Made by a program: the position numbers and the translations under genes. From a virus, in IMG/VR virus record IMGVR_UViG_3300037504_000286, positions 1-40,443 of that record: 40,443 nucleotides of DNA, one strand, 5' to 3'. The notes beneath the pieces were generated by a model. The model did no database searches and was not told the DNA's origin. It worked only from the letters and a program-made list of their open reading frames with translations. Shown piece by piece: positions 23,968-39,059 of the stretch (the stretch's first letter is position 1; every line of letters starts with the position of its first letter).

Positions 23968-24051
23968 TACCGGGAGAGGGACTTGAACCCTCACGACCTT
24001 GCGGTCAGGGGGTTTTAAATCCCCCGCGTCTGCCAATTCCGCCACCCCGGT
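23968..24051 (-). tRNA. tRNA-Leu (anticodon UAA)
   Basis: An 84-nt tRNA on the minus strand. Acceptor stem ACCGGGG/TCCCGGT pairs fully (one G-U) with discriminator A; D stem GCG/CGC with loop GAATTGGCAGA; anticodon loop TTTAAAA (anticodon TAA); long variable arm GACC-GCAA-GGTC typical of Leu; T arm GAGGG-TTCAAGT-CCCTC. CCA is not encoded. The anticodon stem has an A-C mismatch at positions 31-39, where most tRNA-Leu(UAA) have A-U. It is co-directional with the leftward operon and flanked by its genes. Confidence 0.93.
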
Positions 24052-26220: not shown

Positions 26221-26548
26221 ATCGCAACGGGTGGGCATTCCCTTTGTCAATGCCACCTGTGTGAGCAGCTACGACACCGGCGACATAACCGCATCGCAAT
26301 GGGTGGGCATTCCCTTTGTTAATGCCACGACTGCGCCGACGTTGCCGTTGTCGCCGCACCGCAGGTCGCAATGGGTGGGCATTCCCTTCGTCAATGCCAC
26401 ATGGTGGCCGGCAAGTGGCACCTCATGGCCTGGGTCGGACCGCAACGGGCGGGCATTCCCTTTGTCAATGCCACCGGGTTGAGTCCCTGGGCGCCCCAGG
26501 GCCCGGGAAGGTATCGCAATGGGTGGGCATTCCTTTTGTCAATGCCAC
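26221..26548 (+). CRISPR. Five-repeat CRISPR array
   Basis: Five 36-nt repeats (26221-26256, 26293-26328, 26365-26400, 26439-26474, 26513-26548) share the core GGGCATTCC and end AATGCCAC. Spacers are 36, 36, 38 and 38 nt and unrelated to one another. Near the repeat 3' end, GGCATT and AATGCC form a hairpin around a nine-base loop, as in Cas12-type direct repeats, which puts the spacers to the right of each handle. Repeats differ at a few positions, mostly transitions in the 5' part or loop. I see no spacer match in this window and no cas1 or cas2. Confidence 0.85.
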
Positions 26549-26569
26549 GCCTTGTGATCGACTTCGATG

Positions 26570-27209: not shown

Positions 27210-27959
27210 ATGGCTAAAGCAAAGAGCAACGACGGCATCCAAATCCAGACCGTCACCCGCGGGACGCTCACGGCGTACGTCGTGGGAACGACCCCGCTCA
27301 TCTGCAACTGCATGTCCGCAAAGGCCCGGCATGAGATCCTGATGCCGGACAAAGCGAGCAAGCGCAAAAGCGCCAGTCTCAAGCACGACGTGATGCAGGA
27401 GTTCCACGACAGCGTCTACACCGACCTGTCCGACAAGGCTCCGACCTTGATCACCGGTCTTTCCGCGTGGTTCAAGGCTGCGATGGTGGGCGCCACGGTG
27501 GACATGCCGGACGCCAGCAAGGCCGGCATCGGCCGCAACGTGTGGGTGCGCGGTGAGCGCGTGCACGTCTACGGCGCGCCGAAGCTGCTGATGAGCGTCG
27601 TGCGCAGTGCCGGGATGAACAAAACGCCGGACATGCGGACCAGGGCCATCATCCCGGAGTGGGCTTGTGCGGTCGAGATCGAGTTTGCATGTCCGCAGCT
27701 GACGGCCAAGGCTGTCGGTGAGCTGCTGGCCACGGCCGGTATCGTGATGGGCGTCGGCGACTGGCGGCCGGAGAAGGGGAGCGGGAACTACGGCCAGTTT
27801 AAGGTCGTGCCGCAGTCCAACCGTAAGCTGCAGCAGATCATGCGCATCGGACGCAAGCAGCAGCTGCAGGCGATGCAGGATCCGCAGCCGCACGACGACG
27901 AGACGCAGAAGCTGCTCGCGTGGTACGAGGGCGAGCTGCAGCGGCGCGGGCTCGCCTGA
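27210..27959 (+). CDS. Conserved phage early protein of unknown function
   Basis: A 249-residue protein. The stretch GTTPLICNCMSAKARHEILM, the middle AAMVGATVDMPDASKAGIGR and the late GIVMGVGDWRPEKGSGNYGQ match a family of phage early-region proteins often seen near single-strand annealing genes; its function is not established. GAAAGGAG precedes the ATG. A 380-bp pentameric tract follows the stop codon. The RecT-like gene downstream supports a recombination or DNA-metabolism setting, which is inference. Confidence 0.6.
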   Translation: MAKAKSNDGIQIQTVTRGTLTAYVVGTTPLICNCMSAKARHEILMPDKASKRKSASLKHDVMQEFHDSVYTDLSDKAPTLITGLSAWFKAAMVGATVDMPDASKAGIGRNVWVRGERVHVYGAPKLLMSVVRSAGMNKTPDMRTRAIIPEWACAVEIEFACPQLTAKAVGELLATAGIVMGVGDWRPEKGSGNYGQFKVVPQSNRKLQQIMRIGRKQQLQAMQDPQPHDDETQKLLAWYEGELQRRGLA

Positions 27960-27982
27960 GTCGTGAAAGGTGTTGGTGCGGT

Positions 27983-28360
27983 ATGGCAAGGCAGGCGCGG
28001 CTCGGCTGGGCGGGGCGAGGCTCGGCTGGGCCCGGCACGGCAAGGCAGGCAAGGCTCGGCGTGGCCAGGCGAGGCTTGGCAAGTCCCGGCAAGGCAGGCA
28101 AGGCGTGGCTGGGCGCGGCCGGGCTTGGCACGGCCAGGCAAGGCAGGCACGGCAGGCAAGGCCCGGCAAGGCCCGGCGTGGCCCGGCGTGGCCCGGCGTG
28201 GCCCGGCAAGGCAGGCAAGGCTGGGCTAGGCCAGGCGCGGCTCGGCTGGGCATGGCAAGGCAGGCATGGCGTGGCAAGGCGAGGTTTGGCGCGGCAAGGC
28301 AGGCACGGCAGGCATGGCGGGGCATGGCGGGGCGGGGCGTGGCGTGGCGTGGCAAGGCAC
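27983..28360 (+). repeat. Long pentameric (GGCNN)n minisatellite
   Basis: About 378 bp of degenerate five-base units such as GGCAA, GGCAG, GGCGT and GGCCC with occasional phase slips; local motifs GGCAAGGCAGG and GGCCCGGCGT recur many times. It fills the whole gap between the stop at 27959 and the A-rich leader and ribosome site of the gene at 28399. All rightward frames are nearly stop-free, which explains spurious ORFs here. The top strand is G-rich. Confidence 0.9.
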
Positions 28361-28398
28361 CAAATAACCAGTAACCAAAACACAGAAAGGAGCCAGAG

Positions 28399-28881
28399 AT
28401 GGCAGCCAAACTAAAAGACAGGGCGGCGAAGATCACAGCGCGCGACAAGCGCGTCCGGCAAATCTACAAGAAGGCCGGCAAGGTGCTGCGTCCGGAAGAT
28501 ATCATCGAGGACGCGCGCGATCCCAAGAGTCCGCTGCACGACTCTTTCGAGTGGGACGACTCCAAGGCTGCACACGCCTACCGTATGGAGCAAGCCCGCC
28601 GCCTCATCCGGGAAATCCGGGTGGACGTGGAATACAACAGCCACGAGATCACAGCGCCGGTCTACGTGCAGGACACCCGGCGGGACAAAGGCTACATAGC
28701 GGCCGAGGACCTGAAAAGCGACAGGCAGCACGCAGCGGAGTGTCTGGCGCGACGGCTCCGCGCGTGCTACAGCGACCTGGCCGCCAACCGCGAGCTGGCC
28801 AGCAAACTCGAGCTCAGCGACGCATTCGACCGGTTCCTTGACGGCTTGGAAAAGCTGCGGGAATTGGTGGGCGCGGCGTAG
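28399..28881 (+). CDS. Conserved phage hypothetical protein
   Basis: A 160-residue basic protein. ARDPKSPLHDSFEWDDSKAA followed by YRMEQARRLIREIRVDVEY is a pattern I know from unassigned phage early proteins. The C-terminal part is helical (ECLARRLRACYSDLAANREL). GAAAGGAG precedes ATG 28399. It lies between two pentameric tracts, in the same gene group as the RecT-like protein. Function unknown, possibly nucleic-acid related given the basic N-terminus. Confidence 0.65.
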   Translation: MAAKLKDRAAKITARDKRVRQIYKKAGKVLRPEDIIEDARDPKSPLHDSFEWDDSKAAHAYRMEQARRLIREIRVDVEYNSHEITAPVYVQDTRRDKGYIAAEDLKSDRQHAAECLARRLRACYSDLAANRELASKLELSDAFDRFLDGLEKLRELVGAA

Positions 28882-29075
28882 CCTGGTGTGGCTTGGTAGG
28901 GTGCGGCAGGCACGGCAGGGCGCGGCAAGGCAGGCGAGTCGCGGCTTGGCCGGGCATGGCACGGCATGGCGCGGCAGGCGCGGCAGGCGTGGCTGGGCAA
29001 GGCGTGGCGGGGCTGGGCAAGGCAGGCGCGGCTTGGCATGGCCGGGCAAGGCAAGGCACGGCGAGACGCGGCACA
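28882..29075 (+). repeat. Second pentameric (GGCNN)n tract
   Basis: About 195 bp with the same five-base period (GGCAC, GGCGC, GGCAA, GGCGT). Like the first, it begins at the stop codon and ends in a short A-rich leader containing ATAACC and AACACAG before the next ribosome site, so the two intergenic blocks are paralogous. Confidence 0.85.
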
Positions 29076-29116
29076 GATAACCAAAAAAGCCAACACAGCA
29101 ACACGGGGAGAATACA

Positions 29117-33820: not shown

Positions 33821-33874
33821 GCCCAACCCAGCGATCAGCGGCGCGTAAGCGTCCGCTGAATTGCCTGGTTAGGC
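33821..33874 (+). other. attC site 0
   Basis: R'' GCCCAAC (33821-33827) and R' GTTAGGC (33868-33874), 54 bp. The inner arms ATCAGCGG and CCGCTGAATT form an imperfect stem. It differs from attC1 by only a few bases. It follows the last upstream phage gene. Confidence 0.85.
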
Positions 33875-33899
33875 CAGGCCAATCACCCAGGAGTACACT

Positions 33900-34367
33900 A
33901 TGCATATGACCGCAACCCTGTCGCCATGCCGAACATATCGGTACGACCTCACCCGCCGATGGGGCGAGGGCCCGCTATGTGCTTTCATTGGGCTCAATCC
34001 CTCGACTGCGGATGAGACGACCGACGATCCCACCATTCGCCGGTGCATCGGATTTGCTCGCGATTGGGGATGTGGCCAACTGGTGATGCTGAACGCATAC
34101 GCCTACAGAGCGACCAACCCCCGCGATATGAAGCGATCCGCAGACCCAATAGGCCCAAACAACGACGCCGCCCTCCGCTGGTGGTCTGGAAAGGCCAGTG
34201 TGGTGGTTGCAGCATGGGGGACCCATTGCGATCCATCGCGAGCCCAGGCGATTCGGGCGATGATCCCTGAACTACATTATTTGCGCCTGACCAAGCACGG
34301 ACAACCGTCGCATCCGCTGTATTTGCCCAGGGCGCTTACGCCACAGCCGTGGCCCCACGACGCCTAA
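33900..34367 (+). CDS. Cassette 1: DUF1643 family protein
   Basis: A 155-residue protein of the DUF1643 family: CAFIGLNPSTADETTDDPTI, then RCIGFARDWGCGQLVMLNAY and NPRDMKRSADPIGPNND are its hallmark segments. The family is common in integron cassettes and phages; its biochemical role is not established. AGGAG at 33889-33893 precedes the ATG. The TAA stop lies within the R'' box of attC1 (GCCTAAC), as in many cassette ORFs. Confidence 0.85.
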   Translation: MHMTATLSPCRTYRYDLTRRWGEGPLCAFIGLNPSTADETTDDPTIRRCIGFARDWGCGQLVMLNAYAYRATNPRDMKRSADPIGPNNDAALRWWSGKASVVVAAWGTHCDPSRAQAIRAMIPELHYLRLTKHGQPSHPLYLPRALTPQPWPHDA

Positions 34368-34416
34368 CCCCAGCGATCAGCGGCGCGTCAGCGTCCGCTG
34401 AATTGCCTGGTTAGGC
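34362..34416 (+). other. attC site 1
   Basis: R'' GCCTAAC (34362-34368) and R' GTTAGGC (34410-34416), 55 bp. The R'' box is the exact reverse complement of the box that opens cassette 1. Arms GCGATCAGCGG and CCGCTGAATTGC pair with one extra base on one side, the extrahelical base needed by integron integrases. Confidence 0.9.
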
Positions 34417-34429
34417 GAAGGAGATAGAC

Positions 34430-34792
34430 ATGGCAGACATTGATCGAACACAACTAGAGGCTGCTGCGCGGCGCCTTCGTGATGCAGAGTGGATCGGAGC
34501 GACGATCGACTCGTGCACTGGTGACATCTTGCCACCTACGGGCGATATGGGAGAGCTGATGCATGCAGGGATTCAGGCGCGCAGTGCCATCCTTGCCGCA
34601 CTGCGCGCCCATCCGGCGCAGCCGGTAAATGCGTCGACGCTTGGGTCGTATTGGGCGGGATACTGCCCGACCTGTGCGTGGCGCGGCAGTAGCGAGCACG
34701 CTGACGGTGGAGAGCCCACCATGGCTGGCGATTTCAGTGAGGTGATTTGTCCAATCTGTGGCACGGAGCTGGAAGAAACGAAAACCGCCTAA
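34430..34792 (+). CDS. Cassette 2: small protein with C-terminal zinc ribbon
   Basis: A 120-residue protein. The N-terminal helical part (DRTQLEAAARRLRDAEWIGA; MHAGIQARSAILAALRAHP) is followed by a zinc-ribbon pair, CPTCAWRG and CPICGTELE, about 30 residues apart. AAGGAG precedes the ATG. The stop lies inside the R'' box of attC2. Function unknown; such single-domain unknowns are usual cassette cargo. Confidence 0.72.
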   Translation: MADIDRTQLEAAARRLRDAEWIGATIDSCTGDILPPTGDMGELMHAGIQARSAILAALRAHPAQPVNASTLGSYWAGYCPTCAWRGSSEHADGGEPTMAGDFSEVICPICGTELEETKTA

Positions 34793-34843
34793 CCCCAGCG
34801 ATCAGCGGCGGCGGAGCCGTCCGCTGCATTGCCGTTGTTAGGT
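34787..34843 (+). other. attC site 2
   Basis: R'' GCCTAAC (34787-34793) and R' GTTAGGT (34837-34843), 57 bp. The R'' box complements the box opening cassette 2; the R' box opens cassette 3. The terminal loop (GGCGGAGCC) differs from attC0 and attC1. Confidence 0.88.
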
Positions 34844-34863
34844 GTGAACACGGAGAGGACGAC

Positions 34864-35103
34864 ATGAGCCACCCAATACTAAAGACATATGTCTATTGTG
34901 AAGATAAAGTGTTCTTCGTGAGCACTATAGAGCGAGAATATGATACTTATGAAGGCACGTTCGGCGGCGAGGAAACTATCGCCTGGGAGATGGATGGGGA
35001 AGCCCGAGGCAAGCAGATATACCAAGGCGGCGGAATGCAGTCGCACTTTGACGTATGCCGCAGACTGGCCTTAGATGGGCATACGGACCCATATGACGAC
35101 TGA
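34864..35103 (+). CDS. Cassette 3: hypothetical 79-residue protein
   Basis: A small acidic protein (LKTYVYCEDKVFFVSTIERE; GEETIAWEMDGEARGKQIYQ) with clearly more A and T than the surrounding phage genes, suggesting separate origin. GGAGAGGACG precedes ATG 34864. The stop is followed by attC3 after one base. Function unknown. Confidence 0.7.
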   Translation: MSHPILKTYVYCEDKVFFVSTIEREYDTYEGTFGGEETIAWEMDGEARGKQIYQGGGMQSHFDVCRRLALDGHTDPYDD

Positions 35104-35104
35104 C

Positions 35105-35165
35105 ACCTAACCGACCAAGATCAGTGGCGCCACGAAGTGGCGTCCGCTGGAGCGCCTTGTTGGGC
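35105..35165 (+). other. attC site 3
   Basis: R'' ACCTAAC (35105-35111) is the exact reverse complement of the GTTAGGT box opening cassette 3. R' GTTGGGC (35159-35165) opens cassette 4. The site is 61 bp; the inner stem is TGGCGCCACGAAGTGGCG. Confidence 0.85.
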
Positions 35166-35211
35166 GGCAGTTCCGGCGATTCACCAACCTAATAGCCCAC
35201 GGGAGCAACAA

Positions 35212-35358
35212 ATGGAACCTTGTTACACGCACACGACAAAGATCGGGCCAGCTCCGAAGGCCGATGATGACGGCGGTAATCCGTGGATCCATCGGTGGCA
35301 CTACAGCGATGGATCGTACCGAGACGTGGTGGTCGGTGCATTACACAGAGCGGGGTAA
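35212..35358 (+). CDS. Cassette 4: 48-residue protein
   Basis: A small protein (MEPCYTHTTKIGPAPKADDD, then WIHRWHYSDGSYRDVVVGAL) with GGGAG before ATG 35212. Short ORFs of this kind are common in cassettes. About 30 bases separate the stop from the truncated attC4. Function unknown. Confidence 0.6.
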   Translation: MEPCYTHTTKIGPAPKADDDGGNPWIHRWHYSDGSYRDVVVGALHRAG

Positions 35359-35391
35359 CCTGCAGGGCGGTGGACACAAGGACACGAGGCC

Positions 35392-35411
35392 GCCTAACAC
35401 CCCTGATCAGA
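35392..35411 (+). other. Truncated attC site 4 (left half only)
   Basis: R'' GCCTAAC (35392-35398) is followed by CCCCTGATCAG, sharing the GATCAG element of the other attC sites, but no L' or GTTRRRY box follows before the next gene. The right half was lost at the junction with phage DNA. Confidence 0.7.
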
Positions 35412-35421
35412 AGACACCTCT

Positions 35422-35724
35422 ATGAACAGCATTAGAAAGACTCCCATGCTAATTGAGATCAATGCCGGCCACACCATCATTACGGTGGACCGTATCGCCG
35501 CAGTCCATGCCACCACCAGCGGGCGCACGAAATCGCTGTCGGTCCACGTCGCGCACTCAGCGCCGCTGCATATCCCGTACGGCGAGGATGCGGACCGCTG
35601 CGCCGCCGATCTGCATCGGCTGAGCGAGGCGCTGCGTGAGCTGCACGGCCGGCCTGCAGAGACCTGCCAGGAGGTGGTCGACCAGATCATGAGCGAGCCG
35701 CATCCGGATGGGGGGCCGTGGTGA
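35422..35724 (+). CDS. Hypothetical protein at the right cassette junction
   Basis: A 100-residue protein. From ATG 35446 it reads MLIEINAGHTIITVDRIAAV and ends with a helix (ADLHRLSEALRELHGRP), a small alpha-beta domain. The ribosome site before ATG 35422 is poor, and the first eight residues may stem from the junction with the truncated attC; ATG 35446 could be the original start. It overlaps the RusA gene by GTGA. Confidence 0.55.
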   Translation: MNSIRKTPMLIEINAGHTIITVDRIAAVHATTSGRTKSLSVHVAHSAPLHIPYGEDADRCAADLHRLSEALRELHGRPAETCQEVVDQIMSEPHPDGGPW

Positions 35725-36227
35725 TACGCCTCGAGGCCCTGCCCCTGCCATGCCCGGTCAATGCCATGTGGCGCTCCATCCAGACCGGCCGCTATTCCCG
35801 CACGGTGCTGTCGAAGCGCGCCCGCGAGCGCCGCGACCTCATCGTCGAGCAGATCCACCAGCGGCTGGGTGGACGGCCTGAGCCCATGGCAGGCAGCGTG
35901 GCGGTGCAGATGACTGTCACGCCGAGGGACAAGCGCACGCCGGACGTGGACGCCCACATCAAACACCTCCTGGACTGCCTGGCGCATGCCGGGATTTACG
36001 AGGACGACCGACAGGTGACCGCCGTGTACGTCGAGCGGATGCCGACGCCGCAGCACCCGGGCAGTGTGACGGTGGAGGTGTGGCCGATCCACGATGACCC
36101 ACCGCCGGCCGACGAGGCGGGGCAGACCGAGCTGGCGTTCGACGTGGTGGACGACGCCGCGATCGCCGTCAGCACGCCAAGAGGACGCCCGCCAGGGCCG
36201 GTCGTAGAGGAGGAGGCGCCATGGTGA
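35721..36227 (+). CDS. rusA: RusA-family Holliday junction resolvase
   Basis: A 168-residue endonuclease that resolves branched DNA from recombination or replication. PLPCPVNAMWRS is the N-terminal motif, and KRTPDVDAHIKHLLDCLAHA followed by GIYEDDRQV carries the acidic residues of the active site (Asp in PDVD and EDDRQV). The C-terminal 50 residues are an extra, weakly ordered extension. It starts with GTG inside the preceding stop. Confidence 0.88.
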   Translation: MIRLEALPLPCPVNAMWRSIQTGRYSRTVLSKRARERRDLIVEQIHQRLGGRPEPMAGSVAVQMTVTPRDKRTPDVDAHIKHLLDCLAHAGIYEDDRQVTAVYVERMPTPQHPGSVTVEVWPIHDDPPPADEAGQTELAFDVVDDAAIAVSTPRGRPPGPVVEEEAPW

Positions 36228-36547: not shown

Positions 36548-36819
36548 GTCCACCACGCATCCGACCGCATATCCCAGCGCAATCCTACCGCCCGGCTGCG
36601 CACGACCGCACGCCGGGCGATCGCGTGCTGGTTCAGACCTGTGCCGGCGACCTGGTCAGCCTGCGCGGCACCGACTCCGTGGTGCGGCGCGTGCGCGCCA
36701 GCGGCGAGCCCGGGCGCGGCATCCGCATCGTCGCCGACGCCTCGACGGCCGTCGCCGGCGAGATCATCGAGAAGCGAGGCCCGCGTGGCTTCGCGTGGGG
36801 GATGGTATTGCAGCGATGA
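36544..36819 (+). CDS. Hypothetical 91-residue basic protein
   Basis: A small basic, beta-rich protein (RPHIPAQSYRPAAHDRTPGD; LVQTCAGDLVSLRGTDSVVR) starting at GTG 36544 and ending in ATGA with the primase-helicase gene. A role as a replication accessory protein would fit its place but is not supported by a motif. Confidence 0.5.
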   Translation: MSPPRIRPHIPAQSYRPAAHDRTPGDRVLVQTCAGDLVSLRGTDSVVRRVRASGEPGRGIRIVADASTAVAGEIIEKRGPRGFAWGMVLQR

Positions 36820-39059
36820 GCATCGAGACACCTTCCCCCGCACAGACATCAGAGCCACGTGGGCGCATCGACTTCGCGCGCATCAACCTCGAGGCGCTAC
36901 GGCGCTTGCCCGACCTGGTCGCGGACTGGTATCCGGCCGGACGCGCCCAGGGGGCCGAGTGGCGCACCGGGTCACTGCGCAGCGATGAGATGGGTGCGTC
37001 AGCGGCCATCAACCTGGAGACCGGCCGCGCCAAGGACCACGCCAGCGAGGATGCGGCCGGCGATCCGGTGGGCCTCTACGCGCTGCGCTACGACCTCAGT
37101 AATGGGGAGGCCGCCGAGGAGCTCGCGCGCTGCCTGGGCATCGAGGCGCGGCCACAGCGCCAGCGCCGGGGACGTCCGCCGTGTGAGCCGTCGGCTCACG
37201 ATGTGAGCCAGCGTCTCACATCACAAAACGAGAGCGAGAGCGATGCGGTAAGCGCGGAGCAAGAGCGACCCGCCGGCCTGACCCTGCTGCAGTACTCCGA
37301 GGCCAAAGGGTTGGATGAAGCCCTGCTGCGCCGCTGGGGACTGCGCGACGGCAACCATGGTCGTACGCGATCAGTCGTGATGCCGTACAAGGGGCCGGAC
37401 GGCGAGACGCTCGCTCTGCGCCACCGCGTGGCGATCAGCGGCGGCGACAAGTTCCTCTGGCGCAAGGGTGATAAAGTAAACGTCGCCGGCCTGTACGGGG
37501 TGTGGATGCTCCGATGGTGGCGGAAGGACGGCAAGCGCCGGCTGTGGATCGTCGAGGGCGAGAGCGATTGCCATACGCTCTGGCAGGCCGGTGAGGCGGC
37601 ACTGGGCGTGCCTGGAGCCACGACCATCGCCAAGCATCCGGAGTGGCTCCAAGCTGCCGATGGCTTCGACGAGGTGGTGGTCGTGCACGAGGGCGGAACG
37701 GCCGCTGAAGGTCTGGTGCACGCCGTGCGATGGAGCTGCGTGCGTGATCGCTTGTTGGTGGTAGATATTCAGGCCGAGGTTGACACCGAATCCAAGGACC
37801 CCAGCGCTCTATGGGAGCGGTGCGGACAGGACAAGGAGGCGTTCCGGGCGAAGCTCGACATGGCGCTGGAGACTGCGGTCGACGCGGACGGTAAGGCCGT
37901 AGACCAGGCGCCACCTCTGGCCCCACCTCGAGAGTGGACACCCATCGTTGACCGCGACCTGGCACCGCGACCGTGGTTGTACGGAAATATCTGCATTCAA
38001 GGGGAAATCACCATCATGCAGAGTCCTGGAGGCATGGGCAAGTCCACGCTCATGCTCGCAATGGCGGTCAGCGTGGCGATTGGCGAGGATCTGCTAGGCA
38101 ATCGTAAGATCTACGGCGGGCCGCAGGCGGCTCTCTATTGGTCCGGCGAGGACTCGTGTGACGAGATCGCACGCCGGGTGTTCGCGATATGCAAACATTA
38201 CCGCATCGACCAGGAACGGTTGCAGGGAAAGCTGTTCTTCGCCTCGGCACTCGATGACGAACACGCCATGGTCATCGCGTGCCAGGATGGCAACGATGTG
38301 GTGGTCGCCGAGCCGGTGGTGGGACTCCTGCACGACATCCTCTCAGAGCGGCAAATCCGGTTGCTGATCATCGATCCCATGGTGGCGTTCCATGAGTGCG
38401 AAGAGAATGCGAATGGTCCAATGAACCAAGTCGCACGGGCATGGAAACACATCGCCCGCACCGCGGAATGCGCTATCGCCGCCGTCACGCACACGCGCAA
38501 GCTCGGGTTCGGCGAGAACACCGCCGACAGCAACCGCGGCGCCAGCTCGATGCGTGATGCCTGCCGCGTGCAGCTAACGCTCAACGCCATGACCGAGGAC
38601 GAGGCCAGCAAGGCCGGCGTGCCGAAGGAGCAGCGATGGCGCCACCTGCGCATGGATACCCGTAAGAGTAACCACGCGCCGCCCAGCGAGTTCGCGACAT
38701 GGTTCCGACTGGAGTCGGTGACCCTGCGCAATGGCACCGACGACTACCCGGATGACAGCGTCGGCGTGCCGGCGCCATGGCAGTGGCCCGGGGTGCTGGA
38801 CGATGTCACGAAGGACGACATCGCCCGCCTGCTGGGTGCGATGCGCAGCAGCACGGACGTGCGGGCCGACTCACGAGCCAAGGAATGGTTCGGGAACCTG
38901 GTCGCCGAGGTCTTCGGGTGGGATCTGGCCGAGGACCGACCGCGGGTGCTCAAGGCGATCAAGGAGTGGGAGGCGAGCGGGATGATCCGCAGGGCGGCGG
39001 TGGAAGATGATTGGCGCCATAAGAAGATCGTATTCCTTCCCGGGGAGAAGCCCGAATGA
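36816..39059 (+). CDS. Primase (TOPRIM) - RepA-like helicase
   Basis: A 747-residue replication protein. Residues about 240-270 hold the TOPRIM strand and catalytic glutamate (LWIVEGESDCHTLWQAG, E248). Residues about 385-620 form a RecA-like helicase with Walker A SPGGMGKST (403-411) and Walker B RLLIIDPMV (D520), followed by THTRKLGFGENTADSNRGAS, typical of RepA-like (AAA_25) ATPases. The C-terminus resembles a winged-helix DNA-binding domain. No zinc-binding primase motif is visible at the N-terminus. Repeats of an apparent origin begin ten bases after its stop. Confidence 0.88.
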   Translation: MSIETPSPAQTSEPRGRIDFARINLEALRRLPDLVADWYPAGRAQGAEWRTGSLRSDEMGASAAINLETGRAKDHASEDAAGDPVGLYALRYDLSNGEAAEELARCLGIEARPQRQRRGRPPCEPSAHDVSQRLTSQNESESDAVSAEQERPAGLTLLQYSEAKGLDEALLRRWGLRDGNHGRTRSVVMPYKGPDGETLALRHRVAISGGDKFLWRKGDKVNVAGLYGVWMLRWWRKDGKRRLWIVEGESDCHTLWQAGEAALGVPGATTIAKHPEWLQAADGFDEVVVVHEGGTAAEGLVHAVRWSCVRDRLLVVDIQAEVDTESKDPSALWERCGQDKEAFRAKLDMALETAVDADGKAVDQAPPLAPPREWTPIVDRDLAPRPWLYGNICIQGEITIMQSPGGMGKSTLMLAMAVSVAIGEDLLGNRKIYGGPQAALYWSGEDSCDEIARRVFAICKHYRIDQERLQGKLFFASALDDEHAMVIACQDGNDVVVAEPVVGLLHDILSERQIRLLIIDPMVAFHECEENANGPMNQVARAWKHIARTAECAIAAVTHTRKLGFGENTADSNRGASSMRDACRVQLTLNAMTEDEASKAGVPKEQRWRHLRMDTRKSNHAPPSEFATWFRLESVTLRNGTDDYPDDSVGVPAPWQWPGVLDDVTKDDIARLLGAMRSSTDVRADSRAKEWFGNLVAEVFGWDLAEDRPRVLKAIKEWEASGMIRRAAVEDDWRHKKIVFLPGEKPE

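Follow-up and report, generated by a model that had tools for sequence, protein, structure and literature searches.

Inverted integron cassettes in a phage operon: an attC cluster probably served by host integrases

Introduction

How do integron gene cassettes come to lie within a phage operon, and which enzyme would move them there? The question is raised by a stretch of 40,443 nt, here called the window, which is a linear viral contig of IMG/VR derived from a metagenome and carries terminase, head-protease/capsid, RusA and primase/helicase genes. In integrons, IntI acts on the folded bottom strand of attC, and this strand selectivity orients the cassette for expression from the promoter Pc (PMC8946536); recombination increases when the bottom strand is placed on the lagging-strand template (PMC8946536, PMC11023631). 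Clusters of attC sites that lack an integrase (CALINs) have been reported in 17 cases from phages, and IntI1 recombined five of the six phage attC sites tested (Qi et al. 2023, PMC9892861). The cassettes of these phage CALINs, which contain small ORFs and DNA methyltransferases, were described as lying "in the same direction" (TJE1, PH101) or as divergent (P12002L) (PMC9892861). The original prediction for this locus, made from sequence alone, called cassettes in phage genomes rarely described; the remark is right, though such cassettes have already been published. Here we analyze the sites, their polarity relative to the genes, and their occurrence in other viral contigs.

Results

Four attC sites and their cassettes

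A covariance model (CM R1) was trained on 20 attC sites, four from class 1 resistance cassettes and 16 from chromosomal integrons, with the window sequence excluded. In the window it matched exactly four sites, with scores of 46-53 bits and E values from 1.7e-9 to 3.2e-11 (Table 1). A structural search for R''/R' boxes joined by a bulged L''/L' stem, whose initial version was too strict for the controls and was then relaxed, returned the same four sites only in 40 kb, against none or one in the shuffled window. An Rfam scan of the window gave no family matching the attC sites. Boxes, stem and extrahelical base are all present in each site, on the minus strand. The half site, GCCTAACACCCCTGATCAG, belongs to repeat family D1, with 81% identity to the reference copy, and opens the array when this is read in site polarity. 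The four complete sites and the half site that had been predicted are thereby borne out, with all four accepted by the covariance model that might have rejected them, and the box pairs GTTAGGC/GCCTAAC (twice) and GTTAGGT/ACCTAAC had been read correctly.

Table 1. Features of the cassette array and of its phage surroundings (window coordinates)
Feature	Position	Strand	Evidence or remark
Upstream phage gene, 465 aa	32410-33807	+	ORF call; no confident family
attC site A, 5' of ORF1; 3' end of array in site polarity	33821-33874	-	CM R1 46.2 bits, E 1.7e-9; plus strand 24.0 bits
Cassette 1 ORF (ORF1), 155 aa, DUF1643	33900-34367	+	PF07799 5.8e-40; phrog_3230 2.1e-53
attC site B, 5' of ORF2	34362-34416	-	CM R1 50.4 bits, E 1.4e-10; plus strand 20.7 bits
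Cassette 2 ORF (ORF2), 120 aa	34430-34792	+	Possible zinc ribbon: Pfam Zn_ribbon_3 E 0.085, sub-threshold
attC site C, 5' of ORF3	34787-34843	-	CM R1 52.8 bits, E 3.2e-11
Cassette 3 ORF (ORF3), 79 aa, AT-richer (cassette GC 0.51)	34864-35103	+	ORF call; no family found
attC site D, 5' of ORF4	35105-35165	-	CM R1 52.3 bits, E 4.4e-11
Cassette 4 ORF (ORF4), 48 aa	35212-35358	+	Within longer frame 35137-35358; no family found
Half attC site E	~35391-35411	-	Reversed L'/R' half only
Downstream phage genes: 100-aa ORF and RusA-type resolvase	35422-36227	+	PF05866 2e-10; phrog_34 4.7e-25
Primase/helicase-type replication gene, early region	36795-39059	+	phrog_239 3.5e-26, phrog_906 3.1e-32

The four predicted cassette ORFs are real and the DUF1643 assignment of the first is confirmed by Pfam, while the zinc ribbon proposed for the second stays at the level of a sub-threshold hint. 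ORF2 is preceded by a GAAGGAG ribosome-binding site and had no match in the phage records searched. DUF1643 also occurs in two other viral contigs, both without attC; its structure prediction gave a modest model (pLDDT 76) with no significant match in the PDB, and a DNA search of phage records with the whole array returned DUF1643 fragments only. The cassettes have a GC content of 0.51-0.60 against 0.67-0.69 in the flanks, and phage-codon scores are weak for ORF1, ORF2 and ORF4. ORF1 (stop at 34365-34367) and ORF2 both end in a TAA that directly precedes the crossover point, GCCTAA^C. The boxes in or beside which the stops had been placed were labelled R''; the minus polarity of the sites makes them reversed R' boxes.

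CM, Pfam and PHROG matches support the original placement of the cassettes inside a phage replication/recombination operon. The four sites lie within 1.35 kb, and searches of the 40 kb record, which may be a fragment, for an integron integrase or any other tyrosine recombinase (TIGR02249, PF00589) gave no match; neither attI nor Pc was seen in the window. The locus is therefore a CALIN within the limits of this record, and not a complete integron. A comparison with related phages, for other cassettes at the same site, had been named as a check. Queries with the primase and DUF2800 genes returned no relative of the window phage, and the capsid gene gave relatives at 41-49% identity, among which an attC, a weak one, was present in only one of the 27 records tested; neither a close relative nor an empty site was found.

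Polarity of the sites relative to the genes

All four sites score best on the minus strand (at most 24 bits on the plus strand) and the ORFs are on the plus strand, so each attC lies 5' of, and antisense to, its own gene. The original reading, in which the attC of each gene follows it at the 3' side, is reversed by these scores, and the canonical arrangement of a co-oriented gene with attC at its 3' side is found at none of the four sites. The same polarity is visible in the stem: on the plus strand of the window it reads CAGCGG-CGC...GCG-T-CCGCTG, with the unpaired base in the right arm, whereas in canonical attC, such as that of aadA5 (CAAGCGG-A-CGGGC...GCCCG-CCGCT), the unpaired base is in the left arm. 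In the integron controls the polarity given by the unpaired base alone, a structural measure that requires no training, coincided with gene direction. Polarity also agreed with the direction expected from intI in all six independent sites that were usable, several of the additional IntI-linked control regions ending at contig edges.

Inverted cassettes among viral contigs

Viral contigs with attC were gathered by three patterns that took no account of gene direction, similar contigs were clustered, and about 100 viral contigs other than the window were compared. Among viral clusters with at least two sites, 42 were mostly inverted, seven mostly co-oriented and two tied; by site pairs, 156 were anti/anti and 21 co/co. 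The controls with at least two sites were co-oriented in seven of seven cases (six cellular clusters and one plasmid cluster, none inverted), and the cellular loci gave one anti/anti pair against 27 co/co. The difference between viral contigs and controls is significant by Fisher's test, with p = 1.5e-5 when clusters are counted and p = 2.7e-24 when sites are. When a further attC family was then scanned to test the prediction, the contigs dissimilar from the initial set gave 24 inverted clusters, one co-oriented and one tied. Gene direction in the survey came from a simple gene caller, supported by the depositor's calls in MW202573 and by families found for many cassette ORFs. Most contigs are metagenomic fragments, and a search with one terminase family confirmed the gene in only 12 of 44.

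The same type of site was found by pattern in 16 bacterial-genome stretches, where the genes are co-oriented with the sites, and nine of ten tested bacterial genomes with this site type contain an IntI above the curated cut-off. Of the 44 viral records with at least two sites, only one has an IntI that passes the cut-off, and in that record the array is co-oriented. L172 (IMGVR_UViG_2834908352_000001), with a terminase match, a real IntI and at least 13 co-oriented sites, is probably a prophage adjoining or carrying a host integron. In MW202573, a complete circular phage genome, four CM sites are on the minus strand and the depositor-annotated CDS on the plus strand, but the cassettes of phage TJE1 are co-oriented; PH101 gave no CM match within the first 50 kb tested. 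Because most survey clusters and MW202573 are inverted but TJE1 is co-oriented, inversion is prevalent, not universal, in viral contigs. The comparison suggests that phages usually have the inverted gene-to-attC layout and bacterial integrons the forward one.

As a separate observation, a recurrent attC-like site, AACCAGCGGATGCAGCGGACGG...GCCGCTGATCCTGCGTGTT, with semi-conserved flanks occurs in the viral contigs L006, L009, L014, L019, L020, L022 and L023.

Anatomy, cargo and mobility of inverted cassettes

Of 121 genes in inverted viral cassettes, 57 have a stop codon whose last base abuts the crossover, and start codons are concentrated about 20-32 bases past the preceding box. The cargo is diverse, with 156 proteins falling into 149 protein clusters, and includes phage-like functions: six N6_N4 methyltransferases, Mom, an Acb2/Tad1 hairpin domain, a dATP/dGTP diphosphohydrolase and an RNA ligase. 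Two other phages, L092 and L134, are nearly identical except for exactly one cassette, which lies between attC sites. The arrays of L107 and L139, otherwise unrelated, have one cassette in common at 94% identity, the homology stopping at the box; another, common to L109 and L169 (86%), has its limits from box to box, and a third is common to L168 and L154 (77%). Exchange of cassettes between phages is what these data support, and two of the pairwise comparisons leave undefined which hairpin travels with the gene.

Discussion

The locus is likely an integrase-less attC cluster of inverted cassettes within a phage operon, whose most plausible mover is the IntI of the host acting in trans. In the gene direction, the proposed mobile unit would comprise an antisense attC, a short leader with the ribosome-binding site, the ORF and TAA^C. 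The cassette genes have the same direction as the phage operon, whose transcription should express them without Pc. As no tyrosine recombinase is encoded in the window record, the IntI of the infected cell would most likely excise and insert the cassettes by attC x attC recombination, and cargo could be swapped with co-infecting phages. Since site polarity fixes the orientation of insertion, only cassettes of the inverted type would be expressed after insertion here, ordinary bacterial ones being placed antisense; the phage cassette pool would thereby stay apart from the bacterial pool. In the inverted layout, moreover, the recombinogenic bottom strand of attC would be the coding (non-template) strand. 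Candidate reasons for the inversion are a barrier against host cassettes, a better exposure of the strand, or a founder effect.

A broader proposal, which we put forward tentatively at somewhat under even chances, is that phages maintain a cassette pool of their own, with opposite gene-to-attC orientation and moved by host IntI, in which inversion works as an orientation lock. Phage cassettes would then be silent behind a bacterial Pc, bacterial cassettes would be silent in a phage operon, and the recombinogenic strand might be exposed by phage transcription or by lagging-strand replication.

The view of Qi et al. (2023) would make the array an ordinary CALIN: part of some bacterial integron, caught once by illegitimate recombination and now carried as passive baggage. 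Phage CALINs are indeed known, the window sites are true attC, the low GC and the foreign codon usage show acquisition from outside, and presence among relatives is sporadic. Captured bacterial genes, however, would stay co-oriented with their attC whichever way the block is inserted. In the window four of four are inverted, and the cellular site pairs show that integron controls hardly ever have this layout; DUF1643, in addition, is a phage gene family with copies in attC-free viral contigs. We therefore hold passive capture to be unlikely. A junction of phage and host integron DNA created during assembly has still less to recommend it. The window is a single metagenomic contig, recorded as linear, in which GC shifts at the array, but host integron DNA would be co-oriented, and the inverted layout recurs in dozens of unrelated viral contigs as well as in the complete circular genome MW202573; an assembly artefact is thus the most improbable of the explanations considered.

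The hairpins might instead be transcription terminators, RNA-processing or mRNA-stabilising elements of the phage that merely resemble attC. They lie between operon genes at fixed distances, inversion puts a hairpin just 5' of every start codon, and attC sites are thought to be weak terminators (PMC9892861). Against such RNA elements stand the extrahelical base, boxes of the R type (GTTRRRY/RYYYAAC) and the 46-53 bits of an integron-trained model, together with homology blocks of unrelated phages that end exactly at boxes and the near-identical phages one cassette apart, which make this reading very improbable, only slightly less so than a chimera.

The preferred reading, an array of inverted cassettes moved by host IntI, has partial parallels in known systems. 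Like the window, the phage CALINs of TJE1, P12002L, PH101 and MW202573 are attC clusters without an integrase. Systematic inversion was not reported for the phage CALINs of Qi et al.; MW202573 turns out to be inverted once polarity is scored, whereas TJE1 is not. Class 1 and sedentary chromosomal integrons have attC of the same sequence and structure class (CM, R boxes, extrahelical base), but the window lacks intI, attI and Pc and its genes are antisense to attC. In the inverted integron of Vibrio cholerae (PMC11023631), orientation is likewise proposed to alter the single-strandedness of the bottom strand; there, however, the whole array is flipped relative to replication and the genes remain co-oriented with attC, whereas in the window the inversion is between gene and attC within each cassette. 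In the open-access PMC literature searched, neither systematic inversion nor a mostly inverted phage pool was found reported. Phage CALINs are known, then; what the window adds is the inversion of the cassettes, apparently the commoner arrangement among viral contigs.

The suggestion that the phage serves as a vehicle carrying host cassettes between bacteria loses ground. With genes that oppose the polarity of their attC, a cassette taken up by a bacterial integron would come to lie antisense to Pc; inverted arrays carry cargo of phage type, and none of the window cassettes was found in bacterial integrons in this analysis. An orientation-distinct phage pool, on the other hand, would give a testable marker separating phage-made from bacteria-made cassettes, and it would explain how phages could exchange anti-defence genes (methyltransferases, Mom, Acb2/Tad1-type) one at a time through a host enzyme. 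The results bear on the origin of cassettes and on the role of phages in cassette traffic, and awareness of polarity changes the annotation of phage CALINs.

Away from the array, the window holds further elements. At 26223-26557 five copies of a repeat of about 35 bases, TCGCAAYGGGTGGGCATTCCCTTTGTCAATGCCAC, spaced 72-74 bases, form a small CRISPR-like array whose spacers and repeat had no significant match in phage or plasmid records. A tRNA-like gene is located on the minus strand at 23968-24051 (Rfam, 47.3 bits), and GC-rich low-complexity repeats at about 27900-29080 give rise to long overlapping ORFs with stretches such as GRARQGRHG.
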